64,000 nucleotides of DNA from contig OX419756.1 in assembly GCA_948567375.1 (NCBI GenBank), positions 56,930,333 through 56,994,332 of the forward strand, read 5' to 3'. A program made the position numbers and the translations under genes. The notes under the pieces are model-generated. The model was not told where the DNA came from, made no database searches, and saw nothing but the letters and a program-made list of their open reading frames with translations. How positions within the stretch are numbered: position 1 is the first letter of the stretch; every line of letters starts with the position of its first letter. This DNA comes from Lunularia cruciata (Eukaryota > Streptophyta > Marchantiopsida > Lunulariales > Lunulariaceae). Shown piece by piece: positions 941-61,573 of this stretch.

Positions 941-3049
941 ACAATTTATACATGTATGTTCATGTACATGTACAATACTGTTCACTAGTTAAATTGAGGT
1001 AGGTTATTTGACTTTGATTTAAGGGTTTGATTATTTATTGGAGGTAGTATCGAGACCACGATCTGTAATCCTACTTATTACTACTAGGATCGAGCAAAAT
1101 TACTTTAGCCATGATTTGATATTATGATTATTCATTTGAGATGATATTGAGAAACTTTGGAAAAGTAATCACACGATACCAATCTACACTTCACGTAGAT
1201 TCAACTTCAGTTTCAAAAGGATATTCCCTTTCAATAACTTAACTATCAAAACAACGTAAATAGAGTACGTTGACTATTAAATGGCAAAAGTGAACAAATC
1301 TATAATTTATTTTTCAAAAAGTAGAGTTTAATAGTTTCTCTACTTTCAAGATAAATATTCTCTGTGCTTTCTTCAATTGTTGTTTATCCTTATTGTTGCC
1401 TTTTCAGTTACTCCCGATCACTAACAATTAGAGAGAGTCAGCTAGATCTAATACCTATATTCTATCCAATCTAAATGATTCAAAGCAATTCGCCCCACGT
1501 CTCGAACTTTGATCAGTGAAGTAGCGTATGCTGGGTTTGAAACTGATTCTGATTACCGACCACAGGGGAAAGGCGTTATCACTCGAGGAATTTACGTTTT
1601 GTTCTTCGAGTGTTCCCACATGAAAATTCCGGATCATAAAGGTAAGAACTGTCAGGGAATGACCTCCATGTCATCCGCTAAGAATATACAAACAATAACT
1701 GAAGGCATTTCCTTTAAAAGTTAGGACAGCGGAGTGGACTTCTCACTATCAGTTACGAGAGAAGAATATACAATGCCATAAAATGAACCGACGGAGTATC
1801 AAAGTAAACAAGGAGGATCTAGTTGACGATGTTTGCTTGTAGAATCAGCAGGCTTAAAGTCCATCAATCCATACAGTCACCTAGAAGAATATCACTGCAG
1901 CAAATATCTGTTTGGTCTCCCACTCATTTGTCATTCTTCTGTTCCAGGAATTTATAATCTTAGGTAAAGTGGTGAAGAAGGTTCAGCTTGTGATTTTCTA
2001 GGCATGACATCCGTGATCTCATCAGAACACTGTTCCCAGTTTTCCATCGGATTTCATTGCTGAAATTTAAAAGGAAGTGAGGTATGTGGGAGAGGTAACG
2101 CTTGATTCCTGGGGAGCCTCGATACTTTATGGAATTCGTTTAAAATTTCTCCTCTAAATTCTGATCGATAACAGTTGCAAAGTGCCTCGCCACCAGCTTC
2201 AAGACACCTATCAAACTGCTGGGACACTGGAAACAAAAAAGTAGCGTTGAACCAAATATGAAATTATGGCTCCCATGTCCTAATTCTTTGTAATTCATCA
2301 CTGGCTTTGACCATTCAGTGTCACCATGGCATTTTGACCATCGCGATCAGCTTTTGGTCGTCGTCTTGGGCTCACAGTAGTCACCAAGAAATAGAATTCC
2401 TCCAGAAGGCAAACGAGAGGAAAGAAGTAGTTTCACTGTTCGTAAATGATAGAAACCAGTTTAACTGATTGTACAATATGATCAGGTCCCAACTTTTGTT
2501 TCTATTCCGATTAGAACTACAAGAACCAGAGTTGTCAATTCTCGTATCCAGCCTTGACTTTAACGAGCAGAGTATAATGGGGAGTTTTAAAAGAAGTTGT
2601 TTCGTCCAAATGCACAATGCACATATATCTCTATATACTAGAGGTTTACCATGTCTTGGTTGATGTAAGAACTGAAAATAATTAAAGTGCAAATGGTTTA
2701 ATATCCATTTGCAGGCGCTGTATCAAGCGCTATATGATTCGTTATGATCAATGCATCTTACGTGGATAAATTTGTATCACATCATTGTGAGTATAATGGA
2801 GAAATCAATAGTTCTTTGTGCATCGGCAAGATCACAATGAACTTCATCAGATCACTTTTCTGGCACAAGTAAAAAGTTTATCAGAGACAATATCCACATG
2901 TCTGCAATTAATTAGGACCTTGAACTTTGGCCTAACATCCTCCCCGTAAGTATTTCAAAAGCCGATACAAAAGGTCGATTGTCCAGAGAAGTCATCCTGA
3001 TATAATATAAATGGAAGACCCTCGAGAGGTATTGCCTGCTTAGGGCAAC

Positions 3050-3079
3050 ATTTGGGGATGTTTTCTAACATCCCCAAAT
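3050..3079. repeat. Perfect 13-bp stem hairpin
   Basis: ATTTGGGGATGTT (3050-3062) and its exact reverse complement (3067-3079) are separated by a four-base TTCT loop. The T-tract and neighbouring genes that would support a terminator are missing, so it is listed only as a structure. Confidence 0.85.
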
Positions 3080-6000
3080 CCAACATCTATATTTTGTTGA
3101 TAGATAAGAGAATACGGATAAAAAACCACAGTGTAAATATCATGCCAAAGTTTGATATTTTGTAAAGCAACATATCACGGAGAAAGGAGTTGCCACTGAT
3201 TCGAGAATGACGATTAGATAAAACTTTTACGACAGTTGAGAGCAGGATAAAGTAAAAAGAAGCACGAGGGCATGTGTAAAGTTATTAATTTTTGCATGCG
3301 GTGCAATGAATTTTCAACAAGTGCAGATACAGTCCAAGACGAGTTGTGCAAGGATGGAGCCAGAGTTGTTACTCTATAGAATAGATATCCAGATTTACAT
3401 CTGGAGATATACGAGTGTGGAAAGAGAGATGTAGGTAAAATAAAAAGGGTCTAAGAGCAATAAGCGTTAGCCAAAACCTGGGATAAAGATTTGACCATTT
3501 ACAGTCATCGTATAGAGGTTGGGAAACATTGGGTGTGTATAAAACGTCTAAGGCTCAAAAGAGTTTGTCCACTTTTGAACTTGGGCCGGATTTTCCTATA
3601 AAACGATATTTTCCTACATTTTATACGAAAATACAAGAAATCGTGAGACGAAAAGGTACTCGACTTGAAGGGAAAAGCCACCCTTCATAACGCTTGGTCA
3701 CCTCATGCCTATTTCCGGACCTCCACTCCAACATCCGTGAATAAAAAGTTCTCAACTTAGAGGAAAACCCATCCTTCGTACACTTGATCACCTCAAGCTG
3801 ATTCCACACTCCATGCCTGGAACTTGTCGTTCTTCCTAAGTGGGTAAAGTTTTGCATAACACACCGTTGTTAGAAAATCCCAAGATAAAGGTGAGACATA
3901 TATCTCACAGATCAGCAAGAAGGCTATGCCTTTTGAGATAGTATTTTACCCCTGCCACAGGAGATTTAAGTTAAGAAGGGACTTTGCTTATCACTACCGT
4001 TAATTTCAACTTTACCGATACGTCCAAGTATGTGTGTTCGGAGTGGAAGATAGTTCATGTATTTTGAGGAGCGTGGAACGAAGTTATTCCTCTTGCACAA
4101 AATCAATCCCAGCTGTTAAATGCTCATCGTGTAAAGTTTGCTACAATATGCACAAGGTTTCCATCGAGGCTGGGAACTTTAGGATGGCCCTTCCTTGGAC
4201 CGAATATTTGTGAAACATATTTGCAACATCACTTCTAGATCTCCATTTTCTCAAGCACCGTCACGATTTTATTCAGGTGGTTAAGGGTTCCTGTAGATAT
4301 TTATTTTGCCCTTCAATCACATACGGGGACTCTCCACACAGCAACTTTAAAAGAAATCTTAGAATACTTTTTATTCACGCTCTAAAAGAAAGTATAAACA
4401 GATTTAAAAACTGGTCTTTATCTTCCTTCTCTATCCAAATAGGAATTAGATTATCATATTGGCTAAAGTACACTTAGTTGTTTCAATCCATGGATTGGTT
4501 AAATGCCCAAGTCTATTTGAGTCATACAGGTATTAAGATGAAATTAGGTTCACTCTCTTGAATAGCCCCTCCCTACCAAAGAGCTATGAATCTATATGGA
4601 TAATCAGATTTCCAGATATATCTTTCATCATCGAGACCTCAAACGTTTTTTGCACGTTTAGTCCTGTCAATGTCCTTGAAGAGAATTATGAACAACGAGA
4701 TCCATCTATCAATTGTAAAATGCCATTTTGGTGCTTTTGTTTTATTTGCAAAAAGTCTTCGAGGGTATTTTCTGCGCTTGGATCAAGTGAAAGTTGACTG
4801 GAAAGGTTGCGCAATGCCCACGATTGTTATCACTTCCATCAATGATCGAATTATTGTCAGAATTTCATGTGTCGAACCACTGTGACAATTTACTTTAATC
4901 GCACCCGTTATTGATCGGGCACAGTGAGAATCTTAAGCGTTGGGAACTACTTATCATAAGTTAGCTTAATCGCTCTCCAGACCCTCTCACTCATTGATTT
5001 CCTGTTGAGAGGCTCAAAATCCTGAGGCTTGAGTTCGATGGCTGCTGCGCAAATTTCAAGGTCATATCCGCAAACTTATCTCTAGGTGGAGACTGCCTTA
5101 GCACTACTTGCTAGGTATAGGATACTCAGAGGTCAGATGGCGCGGGATGAGACACATTCCAAGCAAATTAAGCTCTTTCACTATTCATATCAATATCTAG
5201 ATCGCAGAGCAGAAGCGACAAGAAAATGTGGTCTCTTGTGGAACACCATCGTGTTAAAAAATGAGAAAGGATTAATTCATTCTCCCGTTCAAGTGGTATA
5301 GTAAAGAAAGTAAATGAAACCGGTTGCGGAGATTTTCTGGAAGGAAGGAGATGAAAGTGGAATGGGGGAGAGCAATTTCTGTTTCTAAGAGGAGTCCGTC
5401 GATTGACTGCTGACACCGTAGGAGGTTGTATTGTCAGTGTAGAATCGAGATTGGAAAGGGAAATGCAAAAAGAAAAGAGGCGAGTCCAGGGACTAAGAAG
5501 GGAGAACTGCTGAAGGAAGAAGCAAGGAGAGACCGACAACCCGTAGAGACGAATCTCGTGTTAAAGCAACAGGAAAGATGTCCAGGCTTCAGAGCAGAGG
5601 GAGGAGAGCAGGATGTAAGGGGAACGGTATGGGGGCTATGAAAGTGGTTAGTAGAAAGCGAGACACTACGGATACATCAGAGGAGTATGTGTCTGGCGTA
5701 TTGTTGGTTGCTTCTAGAAAGTTAGACACCGAGGTGATAAGGTGGACGGACAGTAATACTACTGTATAAAGCTTCGGGGCAGCAGCGCATGCATTGGTAC
5801 TACTGTACCGTACGTACAAAGAGAGAGAGAAAGAGAGAGACTCCTGTTCTTCCAGTAAGTAGACCGTCTGAGAGATCAAAAGTAGTACTTGTGGGTGATA
5901 TCGACAGAAGAAGGAGAAGCAGAAGAAGCACAAATAACGAGACCGGGGCCTGGGAACAGTAAGTAGAAGTGGCAGAGAGGCACAGTAGCAGAAGGAGGTA

Positions 6001-24286: not shown

Positions 24287-24395
24287 AAAAGGGCGACTGC
24301 GTAGAACACACGAAGGATAGGAAGACCCCATCAACCCGTACAGGAGTGAGACAATATAGATAAAATGGGGCTAAGCCCCTATAGAGTTGATAGAG
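24287..24395 (-). mobile_element. Short 3'-end copy of the R2-like retrotransposon
   Basis: About 105 bp match the 3'-terminal block of the full-length element, in minus orientation. Landmarks are AGGGCGACTGCGTAG, GGAAGACCCCATCAA and GGGGCTAAGCCCCTATAGAG. Similarity ends just beyond the GGGGCTAAGCCCC palindrome. An A-rich stretch precedes it on the plus strand. No convincing target-site duplication was found. Confidence 0.85.
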
Positions 24396-27300: not shown

Positions 27301-30300
27301 AGATCTGTCTTTAGCGTATTAATATGACGTCTTTAACAGATAAGAAATACGAAGGAAATCCAAAATTGGAATGGTCAAGCTCCTCTACTCTCGTGTCAGA
27401 AAGGAGAACAGTGCCCACCTCCACAGTCCACTCTCATTGTCAGTGAGTCAGCTCTTCCTCTCTGATCTTTATCGGCCGTAAACTGGCAGGGGGAATTCGA
27501 AGCCTTGAACGTCACGCAGTCAGTCTGACGTGCGTGCTTGCTTCCCTTGATCCCAAAGTCAGTTCGCTGCTGCTGTATTCTGCGTGTCTAGACATGAGGA
27601 GATTGAACAATTGTCCCTCATTTCCTACTCAAGCAACTTGCTTGGTTGGTCTTACTCACCTAATAGTGAGTGAAGCTATCTCCAACTTAAGTCAAGAGCT
27701 TCGACGGAGACAGATTAGATTGTCAGCCCTTAGTCTACTCTGAATTGATAGAACAGGGACTGAATGACAAAATGGCTGATTGTGAGTGACTGCATATCTT
27801 ACAGATCCTGCATATCCTTCATTTTTCCTGTGAGTGACTGCATATCCTTCATTTTTCCTACGCGGTCGCCTTTTTCTTCATATCTTACAGGCTGAGGGAC
27901 AATATTTCGATTTTCTACCGGAGCCGTCAAGTAAACACTTCACGTCAAACATATACATCGAGCTAACTTATCCTCTCTAATTTCCCCGTAACAACATCCT
28001 CATCATAACGATCATGATCTCCTTCCTCTTCAGGCACAACCAAGTGCTCTGGACCTCCCATTGTGGTGTCTTACTCCGCGCTTCTCATTCGACCTTCAAT
28101 ATCGATTAAGATTTTCTCTTGTTCTGGTTCTTCTCCGAGCTTCTTCTTCTTTTTCGTCGCACTAACACCACTGCAACTGCAGTTGCTTGTTTCCGGTGAT
28201 CGAAATTTGCCACCGCTGGACTGTATGGGTACTCGGAGAATTTGACAAAGCAGCGCTAAGAATTGACTAACTGGGCGAGAGCAAATGCAAATTGTTGTAG
28301 TGTCAGCAAGGTCGTGAGCAACTTTTATTGGACGCCCTGAAAAGTGCGCGAGAATCGAGGCAAGAGCACCTTCCACGTGGTTACACGTGGTGCCATGATT
28401 TATCCACCGTATATTGGTGTGCAAGAAATTTAAATTGCAGTAGTGTATTTGTCGGTACAGTTGACACCCACGAATTATAAAGTCTCTTTATTAGTCTGAG
28501 AAGGATTGAGGCTATCGACGGTGTTTGTCATATCCACGCCATAATCTGGGGGTCTCTTCGAGGAGGCCGTTATGATCTGACGGCTGCAGCCGGTGATCCG
28601 GGAAACTAGACGGCCATGGTAAAGGTGGAGATCGGCTTAAGGGTCGATTAAGGCCAAGGCAGAAGTGAAGGGGGGACAAGAAGGACAGAGATTTCAGAAC
28701 AGGGCTCATAATGTTGTCGGCTGGCTGAAGAGATGAGATGAGCGGAGGTACTTCCTTGCAAGCAATCAAAGAGAAAGCAAAGAAAACAGATGTAAAGCAT
28801 TTGCTGGGTGTTGCTGGAATTGTTGGTCACCAGAACTGGAGAAATGGCAGCAACTTCGGTGCTCTGTGATTGTGTGCTGACTACGGATGATGGGAAAAAC
28901 TCCAAATCGTTCCAAGTGCACAAAAGAAAAAGTGAATGCTGGACCCGTCGCTTCCCTAGGACCGGTTCAGCTCAGCAGGGACAAGAGTCTTTTTTTGCTG
29001 TCTTATGTTCCAAGCCTCCAATCTCATGCAGTCCAGTACTGTAGGTTAGATTTCACTTCTGAGCACGCCAATGCATTGCAATGCCTTGCCTTAGGTTGCG
29101 TTGGGACTCGGTTGATCGACGAGGAACGCAAGTGAAGTTCGCACGGGTACCTGAGAACTACTATCGATGGTAATAAGGTGAATAGTACACGGAGTAACTG
29201 GCCGATCAGGGCCCGCAATATAGACATAGATGTACATGAACTCAAAGATTGAGGAGGAGACTTTAGCAAGTGTACATTCAACCCAAGTACAACAAATGAT
29301 TCATGCGAACTTAGGTCCACAATCCACCGCCTGATGAATGTGATACACGAGACCGACCGTAAGACTAAGGGAGGTCCGATCAGGAAATGAATTCAATGGG
29401 TAATCACTTTGGATTTAATATCTTATTGAAAGGGAAGAGATATTGCTTTGGACGAACTGGTGTTCTTAATTCTGCATGGATAAGGTGACCTACTCTTGCT
29501 TCGAGCCGATCGGTGACAGTGATTTATACTACGGTGGAAGATTTCAAAGGACCCAACGACAAGCAAAATCTTAGAAGCTCCTGCGTTGTTGGTGAAGAAA
29601 AGCTTTCGAGAGCACAAAGAGCAATATAAACTAGACAGAAAATTGTCGTATGACGGTACGATGGATGGATGCGTGGATTAGAACTTATGAAACAAGCTTC
29701 ACCTAATTTTAAGCTTCACCCAATATTGTCCGTAGAGCTGTAGACAGCCCAGGGCTCGGAAACTGTATCCGCTGAAGTCGGCAAGGAGGACACGAAACTG
29801 ACTCTTGCTTTTGCCTCCACATTGGAATGAAGTGCGGTCGGTGAGGAGGAGAATGGTGCCGAGAGATTTTGGTGAAAGGGAAACAAATCTTGAGGTCCTC
29901 AGAATGTTGGAGGGGATCAAGCTGAGGGAGGGGCACCTGTCTGGAATGAGTAAGTAGGCAAGTGAGTGGTGGGTGTCAGAAGCTTTAACGGGATGGACGC
30001 CAGCAGCTACGAGACCCACCAAAGGCGAAGCACCGGAAATGCTGATCAAATTTGTGGAGCCAGATTAGATTGATCATACGGTATACTGCCAACGTTAAGT
30101 CGACGACTCTACAGTAGTCCGTCCTATCACTATGGGTGGCTGGATGGGAACTAACCGGCGGTGACCCGGGAACAAATTCAAGTAAGAGTGGCCTGGAAGA
30201 TGAAGTGCAATGTTGAAAACCAAAGGTTTCAGCATCGGACGGGGCATAAATTGAACGATGATAATGTTGGCGAGAGTGAGCATTTATTGCAAGGTGCATG

Positions 30301-33281: not shown

Positions 33282-36133
33282 CTAGAAGTCCCACAACAAA
33301 ACTCGGCTCGGACCACCTCCTAGATCCATGTTAACATTGCTGCTTTCATTGTTCCGCAAGGTTGTTGGATCACCCAACCACAACTGATCTGTAGGCTTTG
33401 AAACGTGGTTTCCATAGACACCACCGGTGTGATGGCCATGGGGTCTAGGCATTGATGCACCTTGCTCCATGTGCGCTGCAATAAAGCGCTCGATGAGACG
33501 CGGAGATGCGGACGCTAAGTTCCCAAGGAGATCCTCAGAGATTCTCGCGTTCACCAGCGACTGCCCAATTCCTAGGTTGAAATTTGCACAGGGATGACCG
33601 GAATGTAACATTTGTAATCCCTGATTATGATTTATTGCCCGGATAAGCTCATGGCTGGCGATGCTCGAAGTAGTTCCATCTGGTCGAGCTGCGTTCTTAT
33701 TGAGGTGGAAGAAGTCTCCTTTGCTTTGCAATATGAAATCACCGGAAAGATCAGGGCCCTGATATCCTTCACCCTGATGCCCCGGTCTCCCAATGGCAAG
33801 GTTTCCAAGTACAGGTAGTGTCGGAGAGAGTCTGTTGCTGCTGTTGCTCGTCGACAGCGACCTGACAAGAGGATTTCCGTGCAGCATGGAACTTTGCTGG
33901 CATAAAGCCTGACTAGGCTGCTGATCGTGGGAGTGGGATGAGCCCTTCCCACCACCGCTTAGCCCCTTCTCCGAACCAATATTTTCGCCGTTGTCAATTT
34001 GCTGCACATGAGGACTAACAATTTCCGGGTTCACTATTTCTGGGTCGGTGAACCCGCCACTCATATCTGAAAAACTCGCACTCTCCGCGTACATTTCCTC
34101 CAAGGACATATCATCCATAGCTTTCGAGTGATACTCTCTAAGTTTTCTGCCTTCGGGATGCTGATCCTGCGAGTCAGTGTAGGGCTTGGCACACTGCCTC
34201 ACGGCCTTGCTCAGAAGACTGTCGCTGAAACACCTTCGTGCCGCTTGCTGATTTCCAGCAAGGTCCAACAAGATCTCTGAAATCGGTTTGTGAGTGACTG
34301 GATCAATGCCCATGTCACACAGTTTTTTCTTCAACCGAGTATTCCAGTGATTCTTGATGTCGTTGTCCGTTCGCCCCGGTAGCCTAGCCGCAATGAGTGA
34401 CCACCTGCAAAACAAAAGCACGTCAATGAGTAACAATGGCAACCAATTGCGCCTCCGTGAAAGTCGGACCTTGGAGAAATGAACGCCATCACTGACGTGA
34501 ACTTCACAGTGCTTCGCAGTCCCAGCCCAAGTTCGTCGTAACTAAAGCGAACAAACCTCAAGCAAGCGCTTGATAACCGGAGATTACAATCTAATTCGGT
34601 TTACTGGCCAATTCCTTGATGCTTGAAGATGACCTGCTTTGTGAGCCCGTGAAGTGCTGGCAAACAGACGAAAACCTGAGGTTTTCGTGGAGAAAGTACC
34701 TGCTTCCGAAAGACGCATGAAGATCCACTATGAGCTTCTCCTCCTCGGGGGAGAAGTTTCCGTGTTTGATATCGGGGCGAAGATAATTGGTCCATCTCAA
34801 TCGGCAGCTTTTACCGCATCTCTGCAGGCCTGTACCATGAAGACATTTCAATATCGTCAAGTTCAGAGCGGCCCCGGAGTGAAGACGTGAATTACGAACA
34901 AGACCGCATCAAGGTTCTAGAAAACTCAAGAGTCGCGAAAACTGTTGTCGAAGGTTGCAGTAGCTTAAATCAAGTGTAGCGTAGAGTTAGACCTAGAATC
35001 GGCTCCTTCTAGATAGCGACATGCTTCCAACCCCGTGATTCTTTGACACATTGTTAATAGAACGACACTAGCCTTGAGCAAAAATGTGGGATTATTATTC
35101 CACTGCCGTAGGTCAGGACCCACCGACCTACATATCACTTGAGCTCGCGAGATGAAACTTGTAAAGCTTCATAAGTTTCAGAATACGGTATCCACAGACG
35201 GTATCAGCTCGATCTACGCTGCTCTACTGTTCATGACCTGATCTCTACCTTGGTCAAATTGGTAATGTGATCACATCTCGTCAGACGATACATTGAGAGT
35301 TGGAATCTACATTAAGGTAAGCGGCCACCAACAGTGTGAACCATATTTCTAGGCCACCGTGACCTTTCCTAACAAGATCCTCACGGTCTCAAGGAAACTT
35401 TCGAAGGCCAAGGAGTGTGTGGGAACAAGCACCTGTCATTGATCTCATTAGTCTGAAGGTTAATGACTTAGGGCCCGAGCAGAAAGGTGGAGTCTGGACT
35501 TGAGAGGATACAGCATTAGGCCGACGAACGAGAACGTTCTGGTGGTGTGGGACAGGTTCCTGAACGACAAAATTGTTCAAAACGTCTGACAGTGGCAGGA
35601 GAATATCACATCATCCGGAAAAGAAACGAGGACGATAGACAATCGTTAGGCCTCGAAACTTTCCAGTTTAACTTTTGTCCTAATGTGCTTTTCACAACGC
35701 TGCAGCATGTGAAATACACCTTCGAACGGACTCCCAACTTTGAAGTAAAGAAGAGATACATGTAAACGTGATGAACCACGATGACTCATGAAGGTTTTTG
35801 ACGCGGGTCGACTATATTGGTTGGCGGACTAGGTCTTAAATGAGTCAAGGGAGCCGCCAACCGCAACTCAATATGCCCTTGTCGCCTGAGGCCAAATCTG
35901 CCTGGAAAGTCGTTGAAAACAGGTGTGTAGCGATGGCATCTTTCTTCCTTACTGCTACTTTCAATCGAAAAAATATCCACACGGGGCTCAAAAGCGAACG
36001 TACCTGCTTTGCGCCCCACGCTCCGCCAGTGACCTGTGCCATGAGCCTCTATATACTTTCTCAACTTCTCATCCTCTTCCGTAGTCCAGGCTCCCTTGCG
36101 AAGGTCTTCGCAATCTTTCACAGACCTGGTCAT
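33282..36133 (-). CDS. R2R3-MYB transcription factor, three exons, about 460 aa
   Basis: A nuclear DNA-binding regulator. Exon 1 is 36133-36004, exon 2 is 34829-34700 and exon 3 is 34404-33282; introns of 1,174 and 295 bp have GT...AG ends. Exons 1 and 2 are 130 nt each, the usual plant R2R3 layout. R2 has Trp16, Trp36 and Trp56. R3 has Phe69, Trp88 and Trp107, with [14 protein letters not shown] at 95-108. The bHLH-interaction motif seen in some MYBs is not met, because the expected basic residue at 83 is Ser. [19 protein letters not shown] follows R3 and resembles the MYB35/MYB80 (tapetum and pollen) lineage. The C-terminus is Ser/Asn/Gly/His-rich and ends SRVLLWDF. The start is supported by an in-frame TAG at 36176-36178. 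The N-terminus ([14 protein letters not shown]) lacks the common MGR..CC opening. R2R3 identity is secure; the subgroup and a sporogenous role are inference. Confidence 0.95.
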
Positions 36134-39005: not shown

Positions 39006-39016
39006 TTAACTTAAAC
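39006..39016. repeat. Target-site duplication, left (11 bp)
   Basis: TTAACTTAAAC, identical to 42749-42759. The pair brackets the full-length non-LTR element exactly. Confidence 0.92.
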
Positions 39017-39125
39017 GGAAAATGGCAACCGCGTAGGAAAAACGAAGGAGGGGAAGACCCCATCAAGCCTCACAAGGGAGAGACAAAAATGGTAACAGGG
39101 GCCCAAGCCCCTATAGAGTCTACAT
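39017..39125 (-). other. Conserved 3'-terminal block of the R2-like family
   Basis: Versions of this block of about 100 nt recur at 11.04, 24.29, 27.85, 46.34, 47.07, 50.8 and 52.4 kb. It contains a GGGGC/GCCCC palindrome, GTCTCTCCCTTGT, TTGATGGGGTCTTCC, a T-rich run and CTACGCGGTYGCC at the end. It is the most conserved non-coding part of the family. By analogy with R2 3' UTRs it is probably what the reverse transcriptase recognises (inference). Confidence 0.8.
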
Positions 39126-39255
39126 GAGAAATCTGCCCCACCGCACCTAAGATATCCGAGCTATGCAAGTCGTACGGTCTACACTCAACTGGAGCATCCG
39201 AAGAAACATCACCTAATGTGATTGCTCTCCTATGGATTGCACCAGCCACAACCCT

Positions 39256-42255
39256 CTATAGAGCAATGGACACACATTGTCTAAAATATGATACAAAGTA
39301 TGAGAGTAAAAGTGGTAACTCCTGAAACTTAACATGTTAAGCTCTCGTGCACTCCTTGACAAATGTGTCAAATGCCGTGTCCATCGCTCCATATAACTCC
39401 AAGGCTAGAGGAACAAAGAGATGACCTCGCTGCATGCCCCTATACTTGGAGACCTTGCGACCTACTGATACACTCGCCACCCATCCAAAGGGATGGGAAA
39501 CTATATCTTGCGTAGGGTCCGTAACCACGACATCCGCTACTGTCACCTGATCATCTCGGACCAAGTATAAGTCTGCCCTGAAACATGTCGTCTGCAAGGC
39601 ATACAAATGCTCCCTCCAAGCCAAGTATCCACTCTCTCGTGCCATGGCAAACACTATGTCTCTAATGGCATCATGGGTAGCTATCCTCTATCCTCCAAAA
39701 GGACACCATGTCATGTGGACCGCTGCTGCATCTAGTGTAGAGCCACACTCACAATTGAGTAATGAAGAGGCAGATGGGTGGACCAAACCTAAGCGAAACC
39801 TCATCGTTGTAGAGAAAGTAGCTGGTGTGAGACGGAAAGCCCTAATGCACTGTCAAGCTAGGATCCAAGACCCTGCACCCTTGCTGGAGCAAGAGCGTAG
39901 ACGAGCTCTAGTAGCCTGAGGAATAGACGAGTTGACTAAGAGAGAATGTAGCGTATGCTCACACTATCACTCCATCAAGGAAGATTGTAAACCTCTAGTC
40001 CAATCTAACGATAATGAAGCAAACGGTGGAAAATCCTCTCGTGCTCGTGAGGATAGACTATCTCTTGTCTGCCGCAATAATGTCTGGAGAGAAAAGGATC
40101 CTCCCTCCACCTCTGTCACATAAGTCTCCAAAACCGGCCTATCAGCAACCACAAAATGAGAGGAAAGTAGGGGTATTGAGAGAGCACAACTACCCAAAAA
40201 CACTATAGGTGATGTCTCCTCCATAGAAAGCAAGCCAACCCCACCACATGAGATCGGCAGAGCCATTTGTCTACGTGCCAAATCCCCTATCACGCACTCA
40301 AAGGTCCTTGGTCCAATAATATCACCAAAGACTCCCATAATCCTCCTATCAAATGCTCTTAGATGTGATAGGAAGGATAGTGAGGGGGGAACTGTATTGA
40401 TGAGGTAGGATGGTTGACGAGAAATACTGGAAGAGAGTATACAAAATGCCCCCTACGGATCTCCTAATAATGGAAGTTCATCCACATGGAGAACATCCTC
40501 TGCAAGGGCAACGTCTAAGAAGTATGTGACAAAATACTCCGATCCTACTAGCACTCCAAGAACATGAAGTCCATCTGTGGATGTGATACATCCCTCTGGA
40601 AGCTCAAGGTGGGGAGGGATACCTAAAGGGGACCATGCCTTACACTTTGACACCTTGACTCTCAAGCCTACTAGATGTAGCTCGGTAGTCAAGTAGTCAA
40701 AGGCCTGCCTAATCTGATCTACAAGGCCTACGATGTGTGTATCATCTACCAAGGAGGGAAATACACAACTTGGCATGGCCAATGTAGTAGATAGGAGAGC
40801 TCTAAAGTGAGCCATGGCAAATAAGGGCCCTCCCAAAGGATCTCCCTAACGTGTACCAATAGCTGACTCCAAGACGGTGACTCCTTCTTGTGAACCACCA
40901 TGCTGGTAGTAAAGGGAAGCAAGAGAACCATAAAAAGACCGCACAAAAGGAATGAGACTCGCCAAGGATCCACCAACCTCCCTAAGCTCTCTTAAGATGG
41001 ATGCACGTGAGACGTTATTAAAAGCGTTCTCAACATCCACCTGTAGGACGACCCACTCCGGATGGATATCTATGAGTGCTCTAATGCCTAGAGATATAGT
41101 CTCACATCCTCCTGGTGTAGCTACTCCAAACTGATGTGGACTAAGGCGTTGTCAAAAGTGAGAACAATGCTGAAGGACAATAGTGCGACTGACCAAACGC
41201 AAAAAGATCTCTCCAATAGCAATCGGTCTAATGCCTCCCGTGTCCTTCTCCATCACGAGAAGTCGACTAGCACTTAACATCCGACTAACAAACATAAGAA
41301 TGTCTCCTCTCGCTACAGTTGCAACCACCTGAAACAACTCAATAAAACCACTAGAAGGATCATCTGCCTGGAAGCAATCTCTAAGGTGCTCATAAACCAT
41401 CCTTGACAAGCCTCTTGGGGAAAGGCGAGGGGCAGTGCACAATGCTTGTGCAAATAGCGAGCTATCAAGACATAAAGGCTGCTCAAGCTGATAATCTAAG
41501 ACCTCTAGTTGTAGTCCCTCTACTGCTATAGGATGCAGTGAGCGTAAGGAAGAGATGGTCTCATCAATAGGACTCGATATTGACAAAGGGTGTAGCACTC
41601 GTGCTGCTCTACTAAACTCTCTTGCCTGACCCAATGTCCTACATCATCGTCATCGAGTGGAATCTGTGGTATCCTATGGCAATGCCTATCTCCTAAATCG
41701 TGTAGCCCTAACAAACTCCTCTTGAAGGGCTGCCCAATCCCCCGCTCGGAATCGACAAAATCTAGCAGCCACCTCTCTATGCCTCGCACGTCCCCCTCTA
41801 GCATAACAAAGACACCATCAAGGGAGTAGGAGGAATAGGAACCATGCTAACTTGTCCAACGGATCACGTGCCAAACGATCTAGTGGTAGGCGAAAAGCCT
41901 ATCTAGTCTCATCATGGAGTGTGCGAGGTAGCCTATGGAATAGACATGGACATGGAAAACTAGTCTCAAATAACCCTAAAATGCAACCCGCTTGAGAAGC
42001 TAACCACTCCCATGACTCGATCGGTATCCTTGGAACGATCAACGAAGGTATAGAAGAAGCATGCGTAATCCCAAGTGTCATTACTGTCTATGTTGTCGCT
42101 CGTCTCACGTGGGCATCCCAAGTGATCCAATCATAGTCCTTGTGCATCCTTCCCACATGGGTCTTTACCCCTTGTGAGGTGAAGCGTCAGTGACACATCG
42201 TGCATGGTGTATCCCGACCCGCTCTCGACTACCCCATATGGGAAGGTGTAGCCAT
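39256..42255 (-). pseudogene. Retrotransposon ORF: C2H2 zinc finger - reverse transcriptase - Cys/His knuckle - restriction-like endonuclease
   Basis: One reading frame of 1,000 codons from ATG at 42255 to TAG at 39256 holds every domain without a net frameshift, but has 17 internal stops (for example codons 9, 23, 368, 470, 601, 801, 856, 973). C2H2 finger: Cys18, Cys21, His33, His38. Reverse transcriptase: RPIAIGE near 340, VDVENAFN with Asp407, GTR(stop)GDPLGGPLF at 467-479 and VDD at 503-505, followed by VKVSKCKAW and VLGVLVG. Knuckle: Cys835, Cys837, His847, Cys851. Endonuclease: HDAIRD at 861, then RAD at 893-895 and VADVVVT with Asp908, matching the PD...D core of RLE nucleases. The stop at 973 is TAT in two other copies. 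The TAG at codon 1000 is shared with copy 2 and is probably the true end. It would nick target DNA and reverse-transcribe its own RNA; it is now dead. Confidence 0.85.
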
Positions 42256-42748
42256 GGCTAGCACAAGAATAATGATAATAACACATGCTTCTCCTCTCCA
42301 TATGTCCCCATGTCTACAAAACCACAACCCCTCACATCACAACTCACATAAGAAAATAATCTCTCCAAACCCTAAAATCTATAAGTTTTCATAACTTTCA
42401 ATTTCCATCTACAAAATTTTCAAACTAAATTCCCATGGAACATAATCATGAAAACCAAGAGATTGGAAATGAAAATTCCAGACCCATCACTCTCAATGTA
42501 TAATGATCACTCTAAACCCTAAAAAATCTAAAAATTCCCATAACTTTCTACTCTATTTTCCATAATCTTCAATCTAAATCTAAATACCAATGGAATTGAA
42601 ATTGAAAAACAAAGAAAATCTACTATTCACTCTAATGCTACGAAGCTAGAGAGCCCTCAGAAATTATGGATGTTGTCTCACATCTCTCCCTATGCTCTCC
42701 TGTCTCCACACTCTCCCGGAGTTCCCTCTCTCGATTCGCTTTATCAGA
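42256..42748 (-). other. 5' UTR of the full-length R2-like element
   Basis: A non-coding leader, AT-rich with repeated CCCTAAA-like words. It is colinear with 61,080-61,573 in the old copy 3, which shows that it belongs to the element. Its first 30 bases (42,719-42,748) run to the target-site duplication. Confidence 0.7.
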
Positions 42749-42759
42749 TTAACTTAAAC
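42749..42759. repeat. Target-site duplication, right (11 bp)
   Basis: TTAACTTAAAC, identical to 39006-39016. Confidence 0.92.
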
Positions 42760-46332: not shown

Positions 46333-46343
46333 CTTCAAGACAT

Positions 46344-46439
46344 GGGGATTAGCCCCATTTTACCTTTTTTGTCTCTCCCTTGTCCGGCTTGATGGGGTCT
46401 TCCCATCCTTCGTTTTTTCTAAGCGGTCGCCTTTCACTC
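46344..46439 (+). mobile_element. 96-bp 3'-end insertion of the R2-like element with perfect 11-bp target-site duplication
   Basis: CTTCAAGACAT occurs at 46333-46343 and again at 46440-46450. Between them is exactly the 3'-terminal block of the family in sense orientation, starting at GGGGATTAGCCCC and ending AAGCGGTCGCCTTTCACTC. This is direct evidence that a severely 5'-truncated copy integrated by target-primed reverse transcription. It defines the 3' end of the family independently of copy 1. Confidence 0.92.
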
Positions 46440-47070
46440 CTTCAAGACATAAGCTTCATTCATAGAGTTTTCTGCTCAAGGTCGTGCGCGATCTGAAGGT
46501 TGTAAGGCCAATGCAAGCAGAACACATAGCCACTATTAATATCCCGTATATACTTGTTTCAAGAGTAGTTTTGATTAGTCATTGCGATCAGATTTGGGAA
46601 CAAAAATCCGAAATTGCTCTTACATGTCGCAAGGCATATTCATCCCACTTCCCAGTTGTGATATTACCAATGCTGGTTGGCTGTTAGGGAGTCTTGTCGA
46701 TGTCCTGAAAAGAATTTCGTGTCACGAAATTCTTGGAATAACCGTCGTTTCACTTGACGAAGCTCTGCTATATTAAGAGGTTAGATTAAAAAATTTTATT
46801 AACCTTCCAACACCATCATATTAAGGCTTGCTGCTTCTCAAAATCTCGAAAATAGTGAATTTAAACGCCTCGGCGGGGGTTGCATCTGAGTTGTTCTGCT
46901 TGACTCGGATGGTGCACCCTGGATTTCTAAGCAGGACAGGCACGTCTGACCTTAGACACCCTAAACAAAAATGCATGAATGAAGAGGGGAATAATTGCGT
47001 CAACAGAGGCGTTCATGCATCGACATTGGCCTAATTTAAGGGTAACTCAGTTGTAAGATCTCTTATGTGA

Positions 47071-47172
47071 AAAGGGCGACCGCGTAGGATAAAAAGAAGG
47101 ATGGGAAGATCATCAAGCCGTACAAGAAAAAGACATATGAGGTAAAATGGGGCTAAGCCACAATTTCACTAA
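47071..47172 (-). mobile_element. Short 3'-end copy of the R2-like element, minus orientation
   Basis: It starts AAAGGGCGACCGCGTAGGAT and ends at GGGGCTAAGCCAC plus a few bases. Flanks TCTCTTATGTGA (47059-47070) and TCTGTTATGTCA (47173-47184) are a probable 12-bp target-site duplication with two mismatches. It is inverted with respect to the copy at 46344-46439, about 630 bp away. Confidence 0.8.
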
Positions 47173-48645: not shown

Positions 48646-48679
48646 TTGTCACCCCAGCATAGATAAGTAGGCTACACCT

Positions 48680-50640
48680 TGTAGATTTGAGAATCAAGGT
48701 GTCAAAGTGCAGAGCATTGTCCCCTTCATGTATTCCTTCTCACCTTGAGCTTCCAAAGAGGTGTGTCACATCTATAGATGAACAACATGTTCTTGGAGTG
48801 TCAATAGAATCCAAAGATCTTTTCATATGCTTCTTAGGCACTGCACTTGTAGAGGATATTCTCCATGTGGATGACCTTACTCTATTAGGCAATCCACAGG
48901 TGGCATTTGGTATACTCTCCTCTAGTATTGCTTGTCGGCCAATTTACCTTCTCCGCACAATTCACACTTCCTTGACTTTCCTATCAAGTCTGAGAGCTTT
49001 TGATAAGAGGATTATGGGAGTCTTTGGTGATATCATTGGACCATGGACATTTGAGTGTGTGATGGGGGATTGGCATGTAGACAGATCTCTACCAATCTCG
49101 TGCGGAGAGGTAGACCTATTATCTATGGAGGATATGACACCTATAACAATTTTTTGAGTTGTTGTGCTTCCTTAGCACCCCTACTTTTCTCCCATTTTGT
49201 GGTTGTTGATAGGCCAATTTTGGAGACATATGTGACCAAGGTGGAGGAGGGATCCTTTTCTCTCCAAGTGTTATTGCGGGAAACAAGAGATGGTATATCT
49301 CCACAAGCACGGGAGGACCTTCCATCCTTTGCTTCCCTACCATCAGAGGTTGAGGTTTGCAATCTTCCTTGATAGAGCAATAGTGTCAACATATGCTACA
49401 TTCTTTCTTAGTTGACTTGTCCATTCCTCGAGCCACAAGAGCACGTCTTTGTTCTTGCTCTGACAAGGGTGCATGCTCTTGGATCCTAGCTCGACCATGC
49501 AGCAAGGGTTTCCGACTTGTACCAGCTACTTTCTCTACATTAATGAGGTTCCACTTGGGTTTGGTCCATCCGTCTACGTCTTTGATATTCACCTATAAGT
49601 GTGGTTCTTTACTAGATGCAACAATGGTCCATATGACACCGTGTTCTTACGGAGGACAAAGGATAGCTACCCATGATGCCATCAAGGATATAGTGTTTGC
49701 TATGGCATGAGAGAGTGGATACCTTGCTTGGAGGGAGCATTCATATTCTTTGAAGATGACACATGTCACACCATTTGTAATGTCACATCTAGATTGCTCA
49801 GACATTAGTGTTGCAATGATAGTAGTTAGAGGTATTTTAGCAGTTTCCCATAGACTACTTTCCGTCGGTCAGATTTTATGATTGGGGTACTGACTTCACA
49901 ATGGGGCCCACCGTCACTTTGCACCATTCGCACCATCGAGTGTGCTGCCAGCGGGACTGTTAGGGTTTCAGACCTAGCTCAAGTCAAGGGGTATACTTTC
50001 AAATTGTAGCTCTAAAGAGTTCATTTCTCTAATGTTGAGCCTTTGAGTTCTTGGTTATGGTGGACAGAGGCCAATGAGCGTCACCTGGATTCTCTTAGGT
50101 AGAGTGGGTGTGGCTTGATTGTAATCAGTGTCCAGTTGTTGGTAATTTATAGAGTGACAGATTTAGTACTGATCTGAGTTGAGTTGAGTTGATTCAAGAG
50201 TTGCAAACGATCTGATTGATTGTGACACTTTAGAGTCTATGTATGACTTATGTGTGAGTTGTGCTTTTATAGTGTATGATGTTGATAGCAATGTTTATAC
50301 GCACGACACACATGTTAGAGCAAACTTATACTAGGTCCGAGATGATCAGGTGATAGTGGTAGATGTTGTGGTTATACCCTACTGTATGATGCAATTTTGG
50401 AGGGAGTGATTACTCATCCTTTTGGATGTACAGCGAGCAGAGCAGCAACATGCAAGGTCTCCAAGTATAAGGGTATACAGCGAGGTCACCTCTTTGTTCC
50501 TCTAGCCTTGGAGTTATATGGAGCTATGGACATGACGTTTGACACATTTGTCAGGAGTGCACAAGAGCTTATCATATTATACACCAGGGGTTACCACTCT
50601 CACTCTTATACTTTATAGCATACTTTACCCAACATGTGTC
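48680..50640 (+). pseudogene. Copy 2 remnant of reverse transcriptase C-terminus and endonuclease
   Basis: Protein segments at 48687-49157 and 49393-49710 align with codons 541 onward of the full-length ORF. The copy keeps Gln codons where copy 1 has stops (GNPQVAFGILSS against codon 601; GGQRIATHD against codon 856) and an Arg codon at 801, and so shows the ancestral residues. Its own damage includes the first knuckle cysteine changed to Tyr (YKCGSLL), frame shifts and the insertion inside the endonuclease domain, which splits the RAD...VVDVVV core. A TAG at the position of codon 764 is shared with copy 1. Confidence 0.82.
49767..50315. mobile_element. 549-bp insertion in copy 2, possible solo LTR or non-autonomous element
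   Basis: This segment has no counterpart in copy 1 or copy 4 and is bounded by ACACATGT at 49759-49766 and 50308-50315. It includes a GC-richer patch (GGGGCCCACCGTCAC) and no protein. Size would fit a solo LTR (TGTCACACC occurs at its left edge), but the right edge does not give a clean ...CA end with a 5-bp duplication. The type is therefore open. Confidence 0.6.
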
Positions 50641-50893
50641 CATTGCTCTATAGAGTGCATTGGCTAGTCCAATCTATAGGAGAGCAATCACTCTAGGTGA
50701 TACTTCTTTGGATGCTCCACTATTTTGTAAAGTGTATGATTTGCATAGCTTAGATATTTGAGGTGCAGTAGTGCAGATTTCTCATATCTATACTATTGGG
50801 GCCTATCTCCATTTTACCTCTTTTGTCTCTCCCTTGTGCTTGTGCGGCCTGGTGGGGTCTTCCCCCTCCTTCTTGTGTTCTATGTGGTCACCT

Positions 50894-52366
50894 TTATCGG
50901 CGGAGAAACAAGTTAACAAGGTACTTTGTCTACTCTAGAGAAGATGACCTAAACTACTCATCAACGTGGAGCATATAATAGCAGATGCAACTGAAGTGTT
51001 CGACATACGGACATTCGCGCCTTGAAGACAACCTCTAAAAGATTATAAAATCCCATTCAGTGTATTGGAATGTCCACAACACTCAGAGAATACTTTTCAG
51101 AGAGAATAAACGAGACGGAAGATCGTTCGTTAAACAGCTAATTGCAGCAAGTATAGTAGTAATCTTTTTATTCACACGATCACGATGTAAAACTTAATAT
51201 TTCCGTCGTCTGCAGCTGGTACCTTCGTCTTCAGTAGGGCTTCCATCATTTGACTTGGAGGCCTTATGATTTCGGCAGTGGGCTCAATCTATCATAGATT
51301 CTAGTTCGAGAACACCGTCACGTTACCCATATCGCGTTCTTGCTATTCCGTTGGTCCTCGATAACTGTAATGGGTATTTTCGCCAGATTTTGGATCGTAC
51401 GCGTTCAGAAAACTGGACGTTGCATATGCCTATGTCGTATGTATGTCTATGTAGACTTGCTATCCATGTCTTGGGACCATTGACCCTCTCTTTCTCTTTC
51501 TGCAATTGTTGGTACATTGTACTTTGTACTCCTTTTCTTTCGGGGTATTATATCCTAGAATATGTTTACTTCTAGACTCTCCTATCCAGGTAGAGTCTAG
51601 TTATTTGATAGAGACCAACAATATGTTTTATATGTTTAATTTATTTTCAAATATGAAGTAAAGCATGTGCATATAATTTCTATGTAAATATCGAAAGAAA
51701 CATTGGCATAGTAAGTAAGAAACCTTCTGGCTACAAAGACGACCTCAAACGAAGTTCAAGGTGATACGTTTATTTGATGCAGATATAATCCTAAAACCTG
51801 ACCATACAATCAACGAATCGGAAAACTGGAAGTCCATCCTTTGGACCTTATAAGTGAATGCCCTTTGAACCAGCGTCGGAGCACTGGTATCAATTTCAGT
51901 TATATTGGAATATTTCAGTTATATTTCATATGGAATATTTCAGTTATATTGGAATTTCAGAATATTGGATCAATTTCAGTTATACCATCAAACCTTACCG
52001 GACCATCTTCTAGGTTCTCACGCCACGTTACTTAATATATGAAATATTCAGAACGTAAGATAACTAATACATAAAAGTGAACGAGGAATGAAAAGCCATC
52101 CTTCTGCTATAGTTAGGCATCGTGGAATTGATCCATGGAATATCGAAGTCAAAACTTAGAAGTCTACTATGACAAAATTAAACATGATTCATATTGCCTT
52201 GTAAATCCTGTATCGATCTACAGTAGGAGTAGAACATATATTTCCCGGGCATTCAAGGTCACGTTTCCAAAGCTACAGTACGTTCGACACCGTACTTAGA
52301 GCTTGTAAGACCAGTTCAATCAGGGATCCATGAAGAATCAAAGACCAAATCGGAAACATAGAAAAC
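50894..52366. other. Intergenic, no gene recognised
   Basis: Only short open frames. It contains the short repeat array at 51889-51985. Confidence 0.4.
51889..51985. repeat. Short imperfect tandem repeats around ATTTCAGTTATATTGGAAT
   Basis: Four or five variants of TTTCAGTTATATTGGAA occur within about 97 bp. This is simple local expansion without coding content. Confidence 0.85.
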
Positions 52367-52419
52367 TGAGAGAGGAAGGACGACCGTGTAGAAAAAATGA
52401 AGGATGGGAAGACCCCATC
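52367..52419 (-). mobile_element. Very short 3'-end fragment of the R2-like element
   Basis: GGACGACCGTGTAGAAAAAA and GGATGGGAAGACCCCATCA match the last 50 or so bases of the family in minus orientation. AGAAAAC occurs at 52360-52366 and 52420-52426, a possible but weak target-site duplication. Confidence 0.65.
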
Positions 52420-52510
52420 AGAAAACAAGAAACACCGAAAGACACATGAAACCGAACAAGGATAAAATCAAAGGAGGAAAATGTCTGGGAAGTATCCATG
52501 AAAGATACCT

Positions 52511-53929: not shown

Positions 53930-55822
53930 GCAAACACCATTTAGTTCCATATTATTTCATGGCTAGAGGAACAAAGATATAACCTTGCTCCGTACCCATA
54001 TACTTGGAGATTTTAGTTGTTTCCACATGCTCTATCACACACTTTGATACTTTAGCTAATGTGAGGTTCATAATCACACTATCCAATTCTATCATTTGAT
54101 TAGCTCAAATCATATAGAAGTCTGCCCTAACTCATGTCATCTGCAAAATATACCAACTTTTACTCCAAATAACTTATCCATTCTCCGATGCCATTAAAAC
54201 ACTATATCCTTGATTGCATTATGGGTAACTATCCTTTGTCCTCCAAAAGTACACCTAGTCATATACACTTCTATTACATCTAAGGTAGTACCACACTCAT
54301 AAGTGAGTAATGAAAATATAGATGGATAAACTAAACCTAAAACAAAACCTCATTGCTAAAGGAGAAACTAATTCATGCAAATTGAAATGACATGATGCAA
54401 GCGTGAGCTAGGATCCAAGATCTTACACCCTTACTAGTGCAAGAGAAAGCATTGCTCTTGCTCTAGTCCAATTCCAACTGCAAGATACTCCTACTGCAAG
54501 ATAAATACACAGGTCAACTAGAAGACATTTAAGGCTTATTGAACTTTTCAATACATAAAGGAATACAACACACCTCTAGTCCAATCAAAATGCAAAGACA
54601 CAAAGGATAGATACTCATCTTGTGCTTGAGGGCACATATCACCTCTCATTTTTTGAATAGTACATAAAGAGTAAAGGATTCCTCCTCCACACATATCTCC
54701 AGGGTAAGCCTCTCAATGGCAGAGATTACCCAACTACCCCAAAAATGTTACGTAGTGCCATCTCCTTCATAGATATTAGGCTTATACTTCCATAAAAATT
54801 GGTAGAGATTTTTGTCTTTGTGCCAAACCCCTAACACACACTCAAAGTTGCTTGATCCAATGATATTACCAAAGATTACAATGATCCTCTTATCAAAATC
54901 TTTTAAATAGAGTAAGAAGGTCGGAGAAGGAGCAACCATATAAATTATAGAGGCTCATTGACAAGCAATACTAAAGGAGAGTATGCTAAGTACCACCTAA
55001 GGATCCACTAGCAGAAGAAGTTCTATGTGAAAGATACCTCCTAATGTCTAAAAGTTATGTGATAAAATCCTCAAAACTATTGCCACTCTAAGAATACTTA
55101 AGCCATATGTAAATACAATATGCTGCTCTAGAAGTTGGAGATGAGTAAGATTACCTAAAGATGACTGCACCTACCATTTTGATACCTTGACTCTCAAGCC
55201 AACAAGATGAACCTCTATGGTCAAGTGGCCATAGGCTTATCAATCTGGTTTTACACATCAAACTATGTGCATATTGCTTGTTAAAGAGTGGAAGATAGAA
55301 CCTAACATGGCTAATATAGTACACAAGAGAGCTAAAAATGAGTCATGGCAAATAAAGGTTTGCTTAAAGGATCTCCTTTTTCTATGTACACAATTGATTG
55401 AAGAATAATATCACCCTCTTTTGAGAAGCTATGTTTGTAGAATCATAAAAGTACTACAAAATAGAAATGAGACTTATGAATGATCCACTAGACTCCTTAA
55501 GCTCTCAAAACATGGATATACCTAAGATGTTATTTCATGAATTCCTTAAAATTCACCTACAAGACAACTCAATTTATACAAGTATTTGGAAGTGCACTAA
55601 TGCTAAGAGATATAGATGCAAAACCTCTTGGTGTAGCAATTCCAAAATAATGACAACTAAGGTGTTGTTGTAAGTGAGAAAGATGCTAAAGTGTAGTGAT
55701 ATGGCTGAAAAGATTAAAAAGAAAACACCTCCCCAATAGAAATTGGTCTAATGCACTTTTTGTGGTTCATCATCATGAAAAGCAACTAGCATTTAGCACT
55801 TTACTAACTAATGTAGGAGTAT

Positions 55823-55827
55823 ACTCC
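55823..55827. repeat. Target-site duplication of the chromovirus, left
   Basis: ACTCC, paired with ATTCC at 60202-60206 (one C/T difference). Confidence 0.75.
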
Positions 55828-56253
55828 TGTAACAATATGGAGTTTACTTATGAAGTTAGTAGGGCTAATGAAGTAGCAAATAAGACAAATTAGCCTAGAA
55901 TATTCCATAAGTATCTAGAAAGCTTCTTGGGAAGCTTCTCGGCTAGTTTAGCTTGCACTCCAAATAGGTAACTTCTAGAAGGAAGCTTCTAAAAGCTTCC
56001 AATTAACTTAGCTTGCATGCTAATTAAGCAGCTCCTAGAAGGAAGCTTCTTGAGAAGCTTCCCAATTAATTTGGCTTGCACTCCAAGAAAGCAACTCAAG
56101 GAAGCTTCTTGAGAAGCTTTTCAAAAGCCTTGTATGATCCCTATAGATACAAGAGTCAAAGCTCATGCTAATCATTCAGAGTTTTCCTACATTCAAGTGT
56201 CCGAATATGAGTTCCCATTCTCGTATTTCTCTCCTTGATCTTGGTCTTTTACA
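55828..56253 (+). repeat. 5' LTR of the chromovirus
   Basis: It starts TGTAACAATATGG and ends GGTCTTTTACA. It contains five exact GAAGCTTC palindromes (55931, 55982, 56042, 56054, 56101), a mutated TATA site (CTATAGATACAAG at 56141) and a transcribed-looking 3' part. It differs from the 3' LTR mainly by transitions and small indels. Confidence 0.93.
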
Positions 56254-56254
56254 T

Positions 56255-56272
56255 TGGTATCAAAGTAGGAAT
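56255..56272 (+). promoter_or_regulatory. Primer-binding site (initiator tRNA-Met type)
   Basis: TGGTATCAAAGTAGGAATGG starts two bases after the LTR end. TGGTATCA followed by a purine-rich stretch is the usual plant gypsy site complementary to the 3' end of initiator tRNA-Met; one base in the first eleven differs from the common form. Confidence 0.85.
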
Positions 56273-56524
56273 GGGATGGATGGAGTTTATGGACCACCAA
56301 ATCCACTTCCACCAAACCATTGAGATTTTTGTGTCCAAGTACTACCCAAGCATCATTTCACACAATTCATCACCTCACGCTTTGGACAAGATTTTTTGCA
56401 TATGATCACCATATTTGAGGAACCCTTGGTGCTTCCGATTGTAACTTTTGGAGAATGGTGTATGTGTTGCTACTATATGTTAATAAATTAGATAGATTAG
56501 GGGCGGCGTGATAGAATAGCAACC

Positions 56525-57430: not shown

Positions 57431-57479
57431 TCAAGTACCTATTGGGAGCTTGATTAGTTCTAATGGGATTGAAGGGTTG

Positions 57480-57580
57480 ACCTATGCAAGTTTGCTTCAC
57501 TTGCAAGGTATGAAATCTAATCGGGGTAGTAGGATTTTGGTTGATTTTGGAAGTTTAAAGAATTGCATGTCTATATAAGA
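57480..57580 (+). pseudogene. Chromovirus aspartic protease remnant
   Basis: RILVDFGSLKNCMSI corresponds to the protease active-site region, in which D-S/T-G is expected. Here it reads DFG, and a stop follows. The rest of the protease is short and runs into the deletion that removed most of the reverse transcriptase. Confidence 0.7.
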
Positions 57581-57779
57581 AGCAAAGGAAGTGGGTATTC
57601 CTATCAAGCCAATAATTGGAAGTAGATTGATGATGTTGGATGATAGAAAGGATTTTTCATTTTGTACCTCACATCTGGTTACCATCAAGAAGTACAGGCA
57701 TTTAATGGATTGGCTAGTTTTACCGACAATTCATCCATTATTATGTTCATGTGGTTGCACCATTGACTGATCTCTAGGG

Positions 57780-60206: not shown

Positions 60207-61573
60207 ATTGTTATTATTACAACCACTTGGAATAACTTTATAAAATCTTTAAAAGGATTATTTGCTTGGAAAATATCTCTATTTTGATCACAAACTATGA
60301 CAAGTTTTTCAAAGAAATTCATAGTGCTAAGCACAATACATAGGCAAAAAGTAATCTATCAAGACCTAATAACTCTTCAAGCTAAATACTCCAAGAGTTC
60401 TATAAGTATTCCTTCTCTTGTGGAAGATGTAATAAATGTAAGGAAGAGATAGTCTCACCAATGCAACTAGCTATAAATAAAGGTATAAGGCTTGTGCCAC
60501 TCTATTATACTCTCCATCCTAGCCCAAGATCATACGCTACTATAATTGAGTTGAATCCATAATATCTTTTCATTCAAATTGTATCCCAAGACATGTAGTA
60601 TAAACATACTACTCTTAAAGTAGCCCAATACCTAGCTTGTAATCTACAAAATCTAACAATCTCTTCTTTCTACTAAACACACCCTCCTTTAGTAAAACAA
60701 AGATACTATAGGAGTTAGAAAAATTAGAACCATGATAACTATTTTAAGGGATCCTATGCCAATCAAGTAAGTAAGCAAAAAGCTTGTCTAACCTCATCAT
60801 AGAATGCATGATGAAGCCTATTCAATAAGCATGGATATGGAAAACTAGTCTAAAATAACTCCAGAATAAAACCCACATCAGATGCTAACCATTCTTACAA
60901 CTTGATGAATCTACTAGGAACAATCAACATAGTGTTTATATTCTCAGGTTAGTAATGGTATCAAAGTGTTTGTCTAGTTCACATATCCATCTCAAGTAGT
61001 CTGATTGCAATCTTTGTTCAATTTTCCCATATCGGTCTTTGTACTTTGCAAAAGAGTCTATATACACCAAGCATAGTGTATTTTCCCATTGCTCTACATG
61101 ACCTCACATAAGAAGTGAAGCCATAGCTACCACATAAATATTGATAGTAACACATAATACTCCATCTCCTCACACCTTTAGAACCACAACACACTCACAT
61201 CCTACCTCACATGAGTAAATAATAACCCTCCAAATCCTAAAACTATTTGGCCTTGTAACTTTTATTTCATATCTCTATAGTTTGTAAACCAAGTCAATGG
61301 AACCAAGGTATGAAAACAAGAAGACTATGAACAAAAACTCCAATGCATCACTCTCATACTAAAAAGAAATAACTTGAAACCATAAAAGTCTTAATACACT
61401 CATATTTTCTTGTAGAGTTTTCTAAAGCCTTGGATTTGGATACCAATAGAACAAAAGATTGAAAACAAAGAGAATTACCTATTTAATTGTAGCTTATGAC
61501 CTACTATACAATTAAAAGAAGAAATTTCTCTCTTTCATTCATCTTAGTACTCCCTTTAGCCTTCTTTACCAAA
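60207..61573 (-). mobile_element. Old R2-like retrotransposon, copy 3, 5' part
   Basis: It continues copy 3 beyond the chromovirus. ACAACCACTTGGAATAA aligns with the codons upstream of the reverse transcriptase, and 61,080-61,573 aligns with the 5' UTR of copy 1 to within a few bases of its end. C-to-T and G-to-A changes have made it strongly AT-rich. With the insert removed, copy 3 is about 3.7 kb, the same as copy 1. No target-site duplication is recognisable. Confidence 0.8.

Follow-up and report, generated by a model that had tools for sequence, protein, structure and literature searches.

What kind of retrotransposon is the 3732-bp element lying in a 64,000-nucleotide stretch of Lunularia cruciata DNA (contig OX419756.1, positions 56,930,333 to 56,994,332 of the forward strand; hereafter the window), and does it belong to a lineage known from plants? 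We have little doubt that this element, copy A, is a decayed full-length copy of a long interspersed nuclear element (LINE) encoding a single protein in which a C2H2 finger at the N-terminus and a reverse transcriptase (RT) precede a C-terminal CCHC knuckle and restriction-like endonuclease (RLE), and that this RLE-type family, bound to neither rDNA nor any other fixed target and inserted at dispersed sites, stands beside R2 in a separate clade that it shares with elements of Closterium. The family is large and has recently expanded in a land-plant genome.

Copy A is full-length but dead. Its length is the one met most often among the other full-length copies (953..4684 in the oriented loci). 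A single minus-strand frame covers almost all of the protein: its 1038 codons contain 16 in-frame stops, there is no frame loss, and TGG stands in place of its own stop codon TAG. An exact 11-bp match, TTAACTTAAAC, abuts both ends and has no third occurrence on either strand of the window, while the 3' terminus reads GCC and then a short T run, poly-A being absent. Full length, perfect flanking duplications and the missing poly-A tail had all been put forward in the initial annotation of this DNA, and all are borne out. Nucleotide identity to the young copies is about 91.5%.

The domain order in copy A is C2H2 finger, RT, CCHC knuckle and RLE. RVT_1 matches copy A at E 6.9e-11 and an intact copy at E 6.6e-15; the finger of an intact copy reads CPVCHRRFTSQGVKTHVGRMH, and RT motif C is VDD in copy A and ADD in young copies. 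The CCHC/RLE stretch is weak in single-sequence search (i-Evalue 9.3-43), and in copy A it aligns with the solved R2 chains. In the predicted structure the domain following the knuckle has a PD-(D/E)XK endonuclease fold, so that both the domain order first read from the letters and the fold proposed with it find support. The RLE comparison comprises 26 hand-chosen rows, and a further comparison 22 rows likewise chosen by hand. A Pfam scan of the intact 1055-aa protein returned only RVT_1 above cut-off, with no apurinic/apyrimidinic-type endonuclease (APE) domain and no Myb domain, and there is one finger. As judged from the predicted fold, the element is a LINE with an RLE, of the R2 superfamily in the broad sense.

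Copy A is one of many. All 44 scored genome places, copy A included, match at E=0 and are spread over all eight large contigs; 44 is a lower bound, and the 26,340 first-look candidates are not a copy count. Among the 30 best-scoring loci fetched (L001-L030, copy A among them), 21 retain an uninterrupted open reading frame (ORF) beginning MATPSHV, 20 of them with 1055 aa and one with 1101. The young copies have a median DNA identity to the others of 98.5-99.5%, and mean ORF difference is 0.54% among the 20 copies with the 1055-aa ORF. Truncation at the 5' end is clear in five of the 30 loci. The 5' ends carry 0-7 GGAGCTGCGG-like units, none in the truncated copies and a few others; these variable units recall the 5' tandem repeats of fungal FoTeR elements. 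In one young copy, by eye, the stop codon TAG sits in the loop of GGGGCTTAGCCCC, and RNAalifold found no covariation to back a conserved fold of the 3'-tail RNA.

Flank matches of at least 9 bp occur at 12 of the 30 loci, compared with 8 of 870 mismatched flank pairs, the remaining 18 being without one; for matches of at least 11 bp the counts are 8/30 and 0/870. The target-site duplications (TSDs) are about 9-16 bp long. By eye the flanks of the 30 loci are unrelated, and the 30 junctions yield no target motif, only a T-rich bias. Rfam was run on the window and on 20 of the 29 full-length loci fetched besides copy A (on none of L031-L060), and no family reached gathering score in any of them; nor is there a tRNA in the window. 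Because the flanks are unrelated, no Rfam family was met in the 20 tested loci and the only bias is T-richness, insertion is taken as dispersed and not bound to rDNA, in line with the suggestion that strict rDNA targeting was lost or never present. The family would move by target-primed reverse transcription (TPRT), with the tail serving RNA recognition and a second-strand cut forming part of the insertion, and would be active at present.

In order to place the family, 49 related proteins (P0003-P0051) were compared. P0022, P0024, P0025, P0027, P0028, P0029, P0037 and P0051 were dropped from the motif table, and P0020, P0033, P0044 and P0048, with defective or divergent RT, were also removed from the trees, leaving 37. 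Where a relative's name gives an organism, it is Closterium, Symbiodinium (P0048, with 14% coverage) or, for P0036, a metagenome bin under the label Pseudomonadota. No named land-plant protein was among them, an absence perhaps owed to the database, in which each search scored only some 8,000 candidates, those with most words in common. None of six peptide patterns taken from P0003 matched in viral contigs, and plasmid records gave ten matches (E 0.003-0.6), of which those with annotation are RT genes of group II introns or of other kinds. The Closterium proteins P0015 (CLOP_g14003), P0021 and P0033 are 28-34% identical to the plant element and, unlike it, have long low-complexity N-termini.

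Motif A reads NAFN in 38 of the 41 tabulated relatives and in both plant rows, and KAFD in all three R2 chains and in the APE LINE of the host. In a tree rooted on group II introns the NAFN clade falls outside R2 plus APE (98.6/100, 95.5/98), and the plant element lies in a ten-member RT clade that includes P0015 (92.1/93). P0021 belongs to the NAFN clade more broadly, and NAFN is also the motif of P0033, which was dropped from the tree. The approximately unbiased (AU) test rejected an exclusive clade of R2 and the plant element (p=0.0011) and a grouping with the sole APE LINE included, which comes from the same genome (p=0.013); the search for the constrained trees ran in fast mode, and their likelihoods may be slightly low as a result. 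Sisterhood of R2 and the NAFN clade as a whole was not rejected (p=0.31). By trees and AU test the RT of the family lies outside the R2 clade, and the family appears to form its own clade beside R2, together with the Closterium elements.

The reading that survives best beside this one, and to which we give an even chance, is that the family is a non-site-specific plant and algal branch of the CRE clade (SLACS, CRE1/2 and CZAR of trypanosomatids, MoTeR1 and other MoTeR and FoTeR elements of fungi). The NAFN motif, which CRE elements probably carry too, and the position of the NAFN clade outside R2 plus APE argue for it, but no named CRE sequence is among those in the trees, and sisterhood to R2 was not rejected. 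The REL of the family shows small departures (X9, X8, THD, RAD) from C[X1-3]C[X7-8]H[X3-4]C[X9-10]RHD/N.X19-33.E.X9-21.R/KPD.X12-14.D/E, a consensus that we take to be general to RLE elements. In favour of the CRE reading, its C-X1-C-X9-H-X3-C-X8-THD-X19-E-X10-RAD-X12-D is near the CRE/MoTeR REL consensus with RAD.X12 in the available part of PMC12857005, RAD/RPD.X12-14 being common to both, and a C2H2 finger in several FoTeR proteins and FoTeR 5' tandem repeats add to the likeness. Against it, described CRE elements are site-specific and the trypanosomatid ones poly-A-tailed (PMC12278014, available part), whereas the plant family is neither: instead of spliced-leader or telomere targets it occupies 44 dispersed places, with unrelated flanks in 30 loci. 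The sources differ on the clade itself, as in the parts available PMC12857005 assigns CRE1/2 to Drosophila and CZAR to Tetrahymena while PMC12278014 treats the CRE clade as trypanosomatid.

Membership of the R2 clade is very unlikely. The best solved relatives are R2 elements (R2Bm, R2Tg and R2 of Platysternon; PDB 8gh6, 9dou, 9nl3, 9nl2), and structural searches gave R2 and L1 as top matches; this ranking had no RLE competitor, since no other RLE clade was solved among the matches. Zinc finger-RT-CCHC-RLE order, RLE fold, 5' truncation and lack of poly-A are alike. The plant family differs in having no rDNA target, NAFN and not KAFD, one finger, no Myb domain above the Pfam cut-off and TSDs of about 9-16 bp, and its exclusive grouping with R2 was rejected. 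The R2-superfamily assignment first proposed is retained in the broad sense, by RLE fold and domain order; the R2 clade proper is disfavoured by the AU result and by the lack of insertion in 28S rDNA, no Rfam family having been met in the window or the 20 loci.

That the family is a contaminant or a recent horizontal arrival, and not a resident plant element, is most improbable. Its named relatives are algal, most others are unnamed and a patchy distribution is possible, but there are copies on all eight large contigs, and the window alone holds old nested fragments with 66-92% identity to the young element. The old copies speak for long residence, though the origin may be an older horizontal one. 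That it is an ordinary plant L1 or RTE LINE, misread, has a negligible chance: a VIA comparison of the complete model scored L1 and R2 about alike in Z, but the RLE fold, the absent APE domain, the lack of poly-A and the AU rejection of a grouping with the host's own APE LINE all oppose it.

Plant L1 and RTE LINEs use an APE endonuclease; they are resident plant LINEs moved by TPRT, as the present family would be. They differ in their (A)n or (GTT)n tails (PMC9033089, available part), and the same part of that 2022 land-plant review assigns plant LINEs to L1 and RTE, out of five superfamilies known, as the initial annotation had held for the well-characterised plant elements. In the available part of PMC4640811 the RLE clades are named as CRE, R2, R4, NeSL and HERO, with Dualen apart and no land-plant member mentioned. 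HERO and BLAG are likened to the family by description, being RLE-type, not (or not always) site-specific and described in animals (PMC4640811, PMC7650587, parts available). Among the matches listed from open-licence PMC literature, no title or abstract opening reported RLE LINEs in land plants, in a search without Repbase, Dfam or Repbase Reports. Since the review gives only L1 and RTE and no such report was found, it is taken as new at the level of the family and perhaps also at that of the clade, which, with an RT outside R2 and the APE LINE, agrees with the undescribed plant lineage first surmised. An abundant, recently expanded land-plant RLE LINE with Closterium kin would bring the LINE superfamilies of plants to three, would supply a non-site-specific RLE for comparison of target choice with R2, itself under study as an insertion tool (PMC12222951, available part), and raises the question of how frequently target specificity is lost among RLE LINEs.

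The host is a plant. Its genome has 146 Exo_endo_phos matches, of which many have open frames of 1077 aa and most lie in one narrow zone per large contig (Table 1) or on small contigs; one fetched stretch, L064, encodes an APE-RT protein. The zones are probably centromeric APE-LINE arrays of eight chromosomes. A tentative wider reading, which we hold somewhat less likely than its opposite, is that non-site-specific RLE LINEs form an old class resident in streptophytes, overlooked since plant surveys sought L1 and RTE. In this plant they would be the LINEs that still move and lie scattered along the chromosome arms, with the APE LINE confined to a single, probably centromeric zone on each chromosome, the two endonuclease types thereby splitting the genome.

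Table 1. Coordinates of copy A, its parts, related copies in the window and host APE-type zones (window positions unless a contig and Mb are given)
Feature	Position	Strand	Remark or basis
Copy A, full-length decayed RLE-type non-LTR (long terminal repeat) retrotransposon, 3732 bp	39017..42748	-	
TSD TTAACTTAAAC, element's 3' side	39006..39016	.	exact match
TSD TTAACTTAAAC, element's 5' side	42749..42759	.	exact match
3' untranslated region; conserved tail, GCC + T run at end, no poly-A	39017..39102	-	
Degenerate ORF, in-frame stops; 1055 codons in young copies	39103..42255	-	
RLE core HD-X19-E-X10-RAD-X12-D ... K	39454..39675	-	alignment and structure comparison
CCHC knuckle C-X1-C-X9-H-X3-C	39703..39753	-	
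RT core; motif A NAFN, motif C VDD	40552..41304	-	RVT_1, R2 alignment, motif table
N-terminal C2H2 finger, CTMCH*RFTSQGVKTHVGRMH, one internal stop	42142..42204	-	intact in other copies
5' untranslated region; GGAGCTGCGG-like units start most full-length young copies	42256..42748	-	young copies
Copy C, 5'-truncated, 76.6% nucleotide identity	11037..11638	-	
3'-end-only copy, no clear flanking repeat	24287..24387	-	
32-bp perfect match to young element's last bases	27844..27875	+	
3'-end-only copy, ~92 bp, CTTCAAGACAT in both flanks	46343..46434	+	by reading
3'-end-only copy, flanking repeat 10/11 bp, ACATAA[C/G]AGAT	47070..47164	-	
Copy B, 5' part	48671..49768	+	
Copy B, 3' part	50308..50895	+	
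3'-end fragment	52376..52420	-	
Copy D, 3' part; divergent lineage, mostly 34-38% aa identity to copy A	53943..55811	-	
Copy D, 5' part	60209..61483	-	
Exo_endo_phos zone	C1 46.28-46.50 Mb		
Exo_endo_phos zone	C2 33.19-34.29 Mb		
Exo_endo_phos zone	C6 25.25-25.64 Mb		
Exo_endo_phos zone	C7 46.54-46.88 Mb		
Exo_endo_phos zone	C8 39.42-39.66 Mb		
Exo_endo_phos zone	C10 20.29-20.76 Mb		
Exo_endo_phos zone	C11 25.99-26.45 Mb		
Exo_endo_phos zone	C12 25.25-25.61 Mb		

Copy A shares the window with eight other copies or fragments, and several pieces of about 100 bp that comprise the 3' end only share the ending G(G/A)TCGCC or GGTCACC plus a T run. In the one at 46343 the 5' CTTCAAGACAT touches the element's first bases, a script with an earlier boundary having scored 9/10. 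The parts of copy B are separated by about 540 bp of unrelated sequence (49769-50307) with no second copy in the window. Copy D is split by an LTR-like insertion (55812-60217) with direct repeats at 55828-56253 and 59795-60201 that are 85.7% identical; a script found no target repeat of at least 5 bp at its edges. Elsewhere, at C2 2.65-3.34 Mb, lie 7 of the 40 listed 3'-tail matches, in two score groups with successive members about 210-240 kb apart, which suggests segmental repeats.

The window also contains a Myb exon of plant R2R3 type in a long open frame (33282-34541, minus strand) and a perfect tandem duplication of about 130 bp (394-654). LEAFY was found at one place in the genome and in none of 14 control genomes, and its SAM domain matches GinLFY (4ude), which we take to be a Ginkgo protein; at L065 1267-1420 a run of MDPR-like repeats begins the open frame in the LEAFY-like exon.
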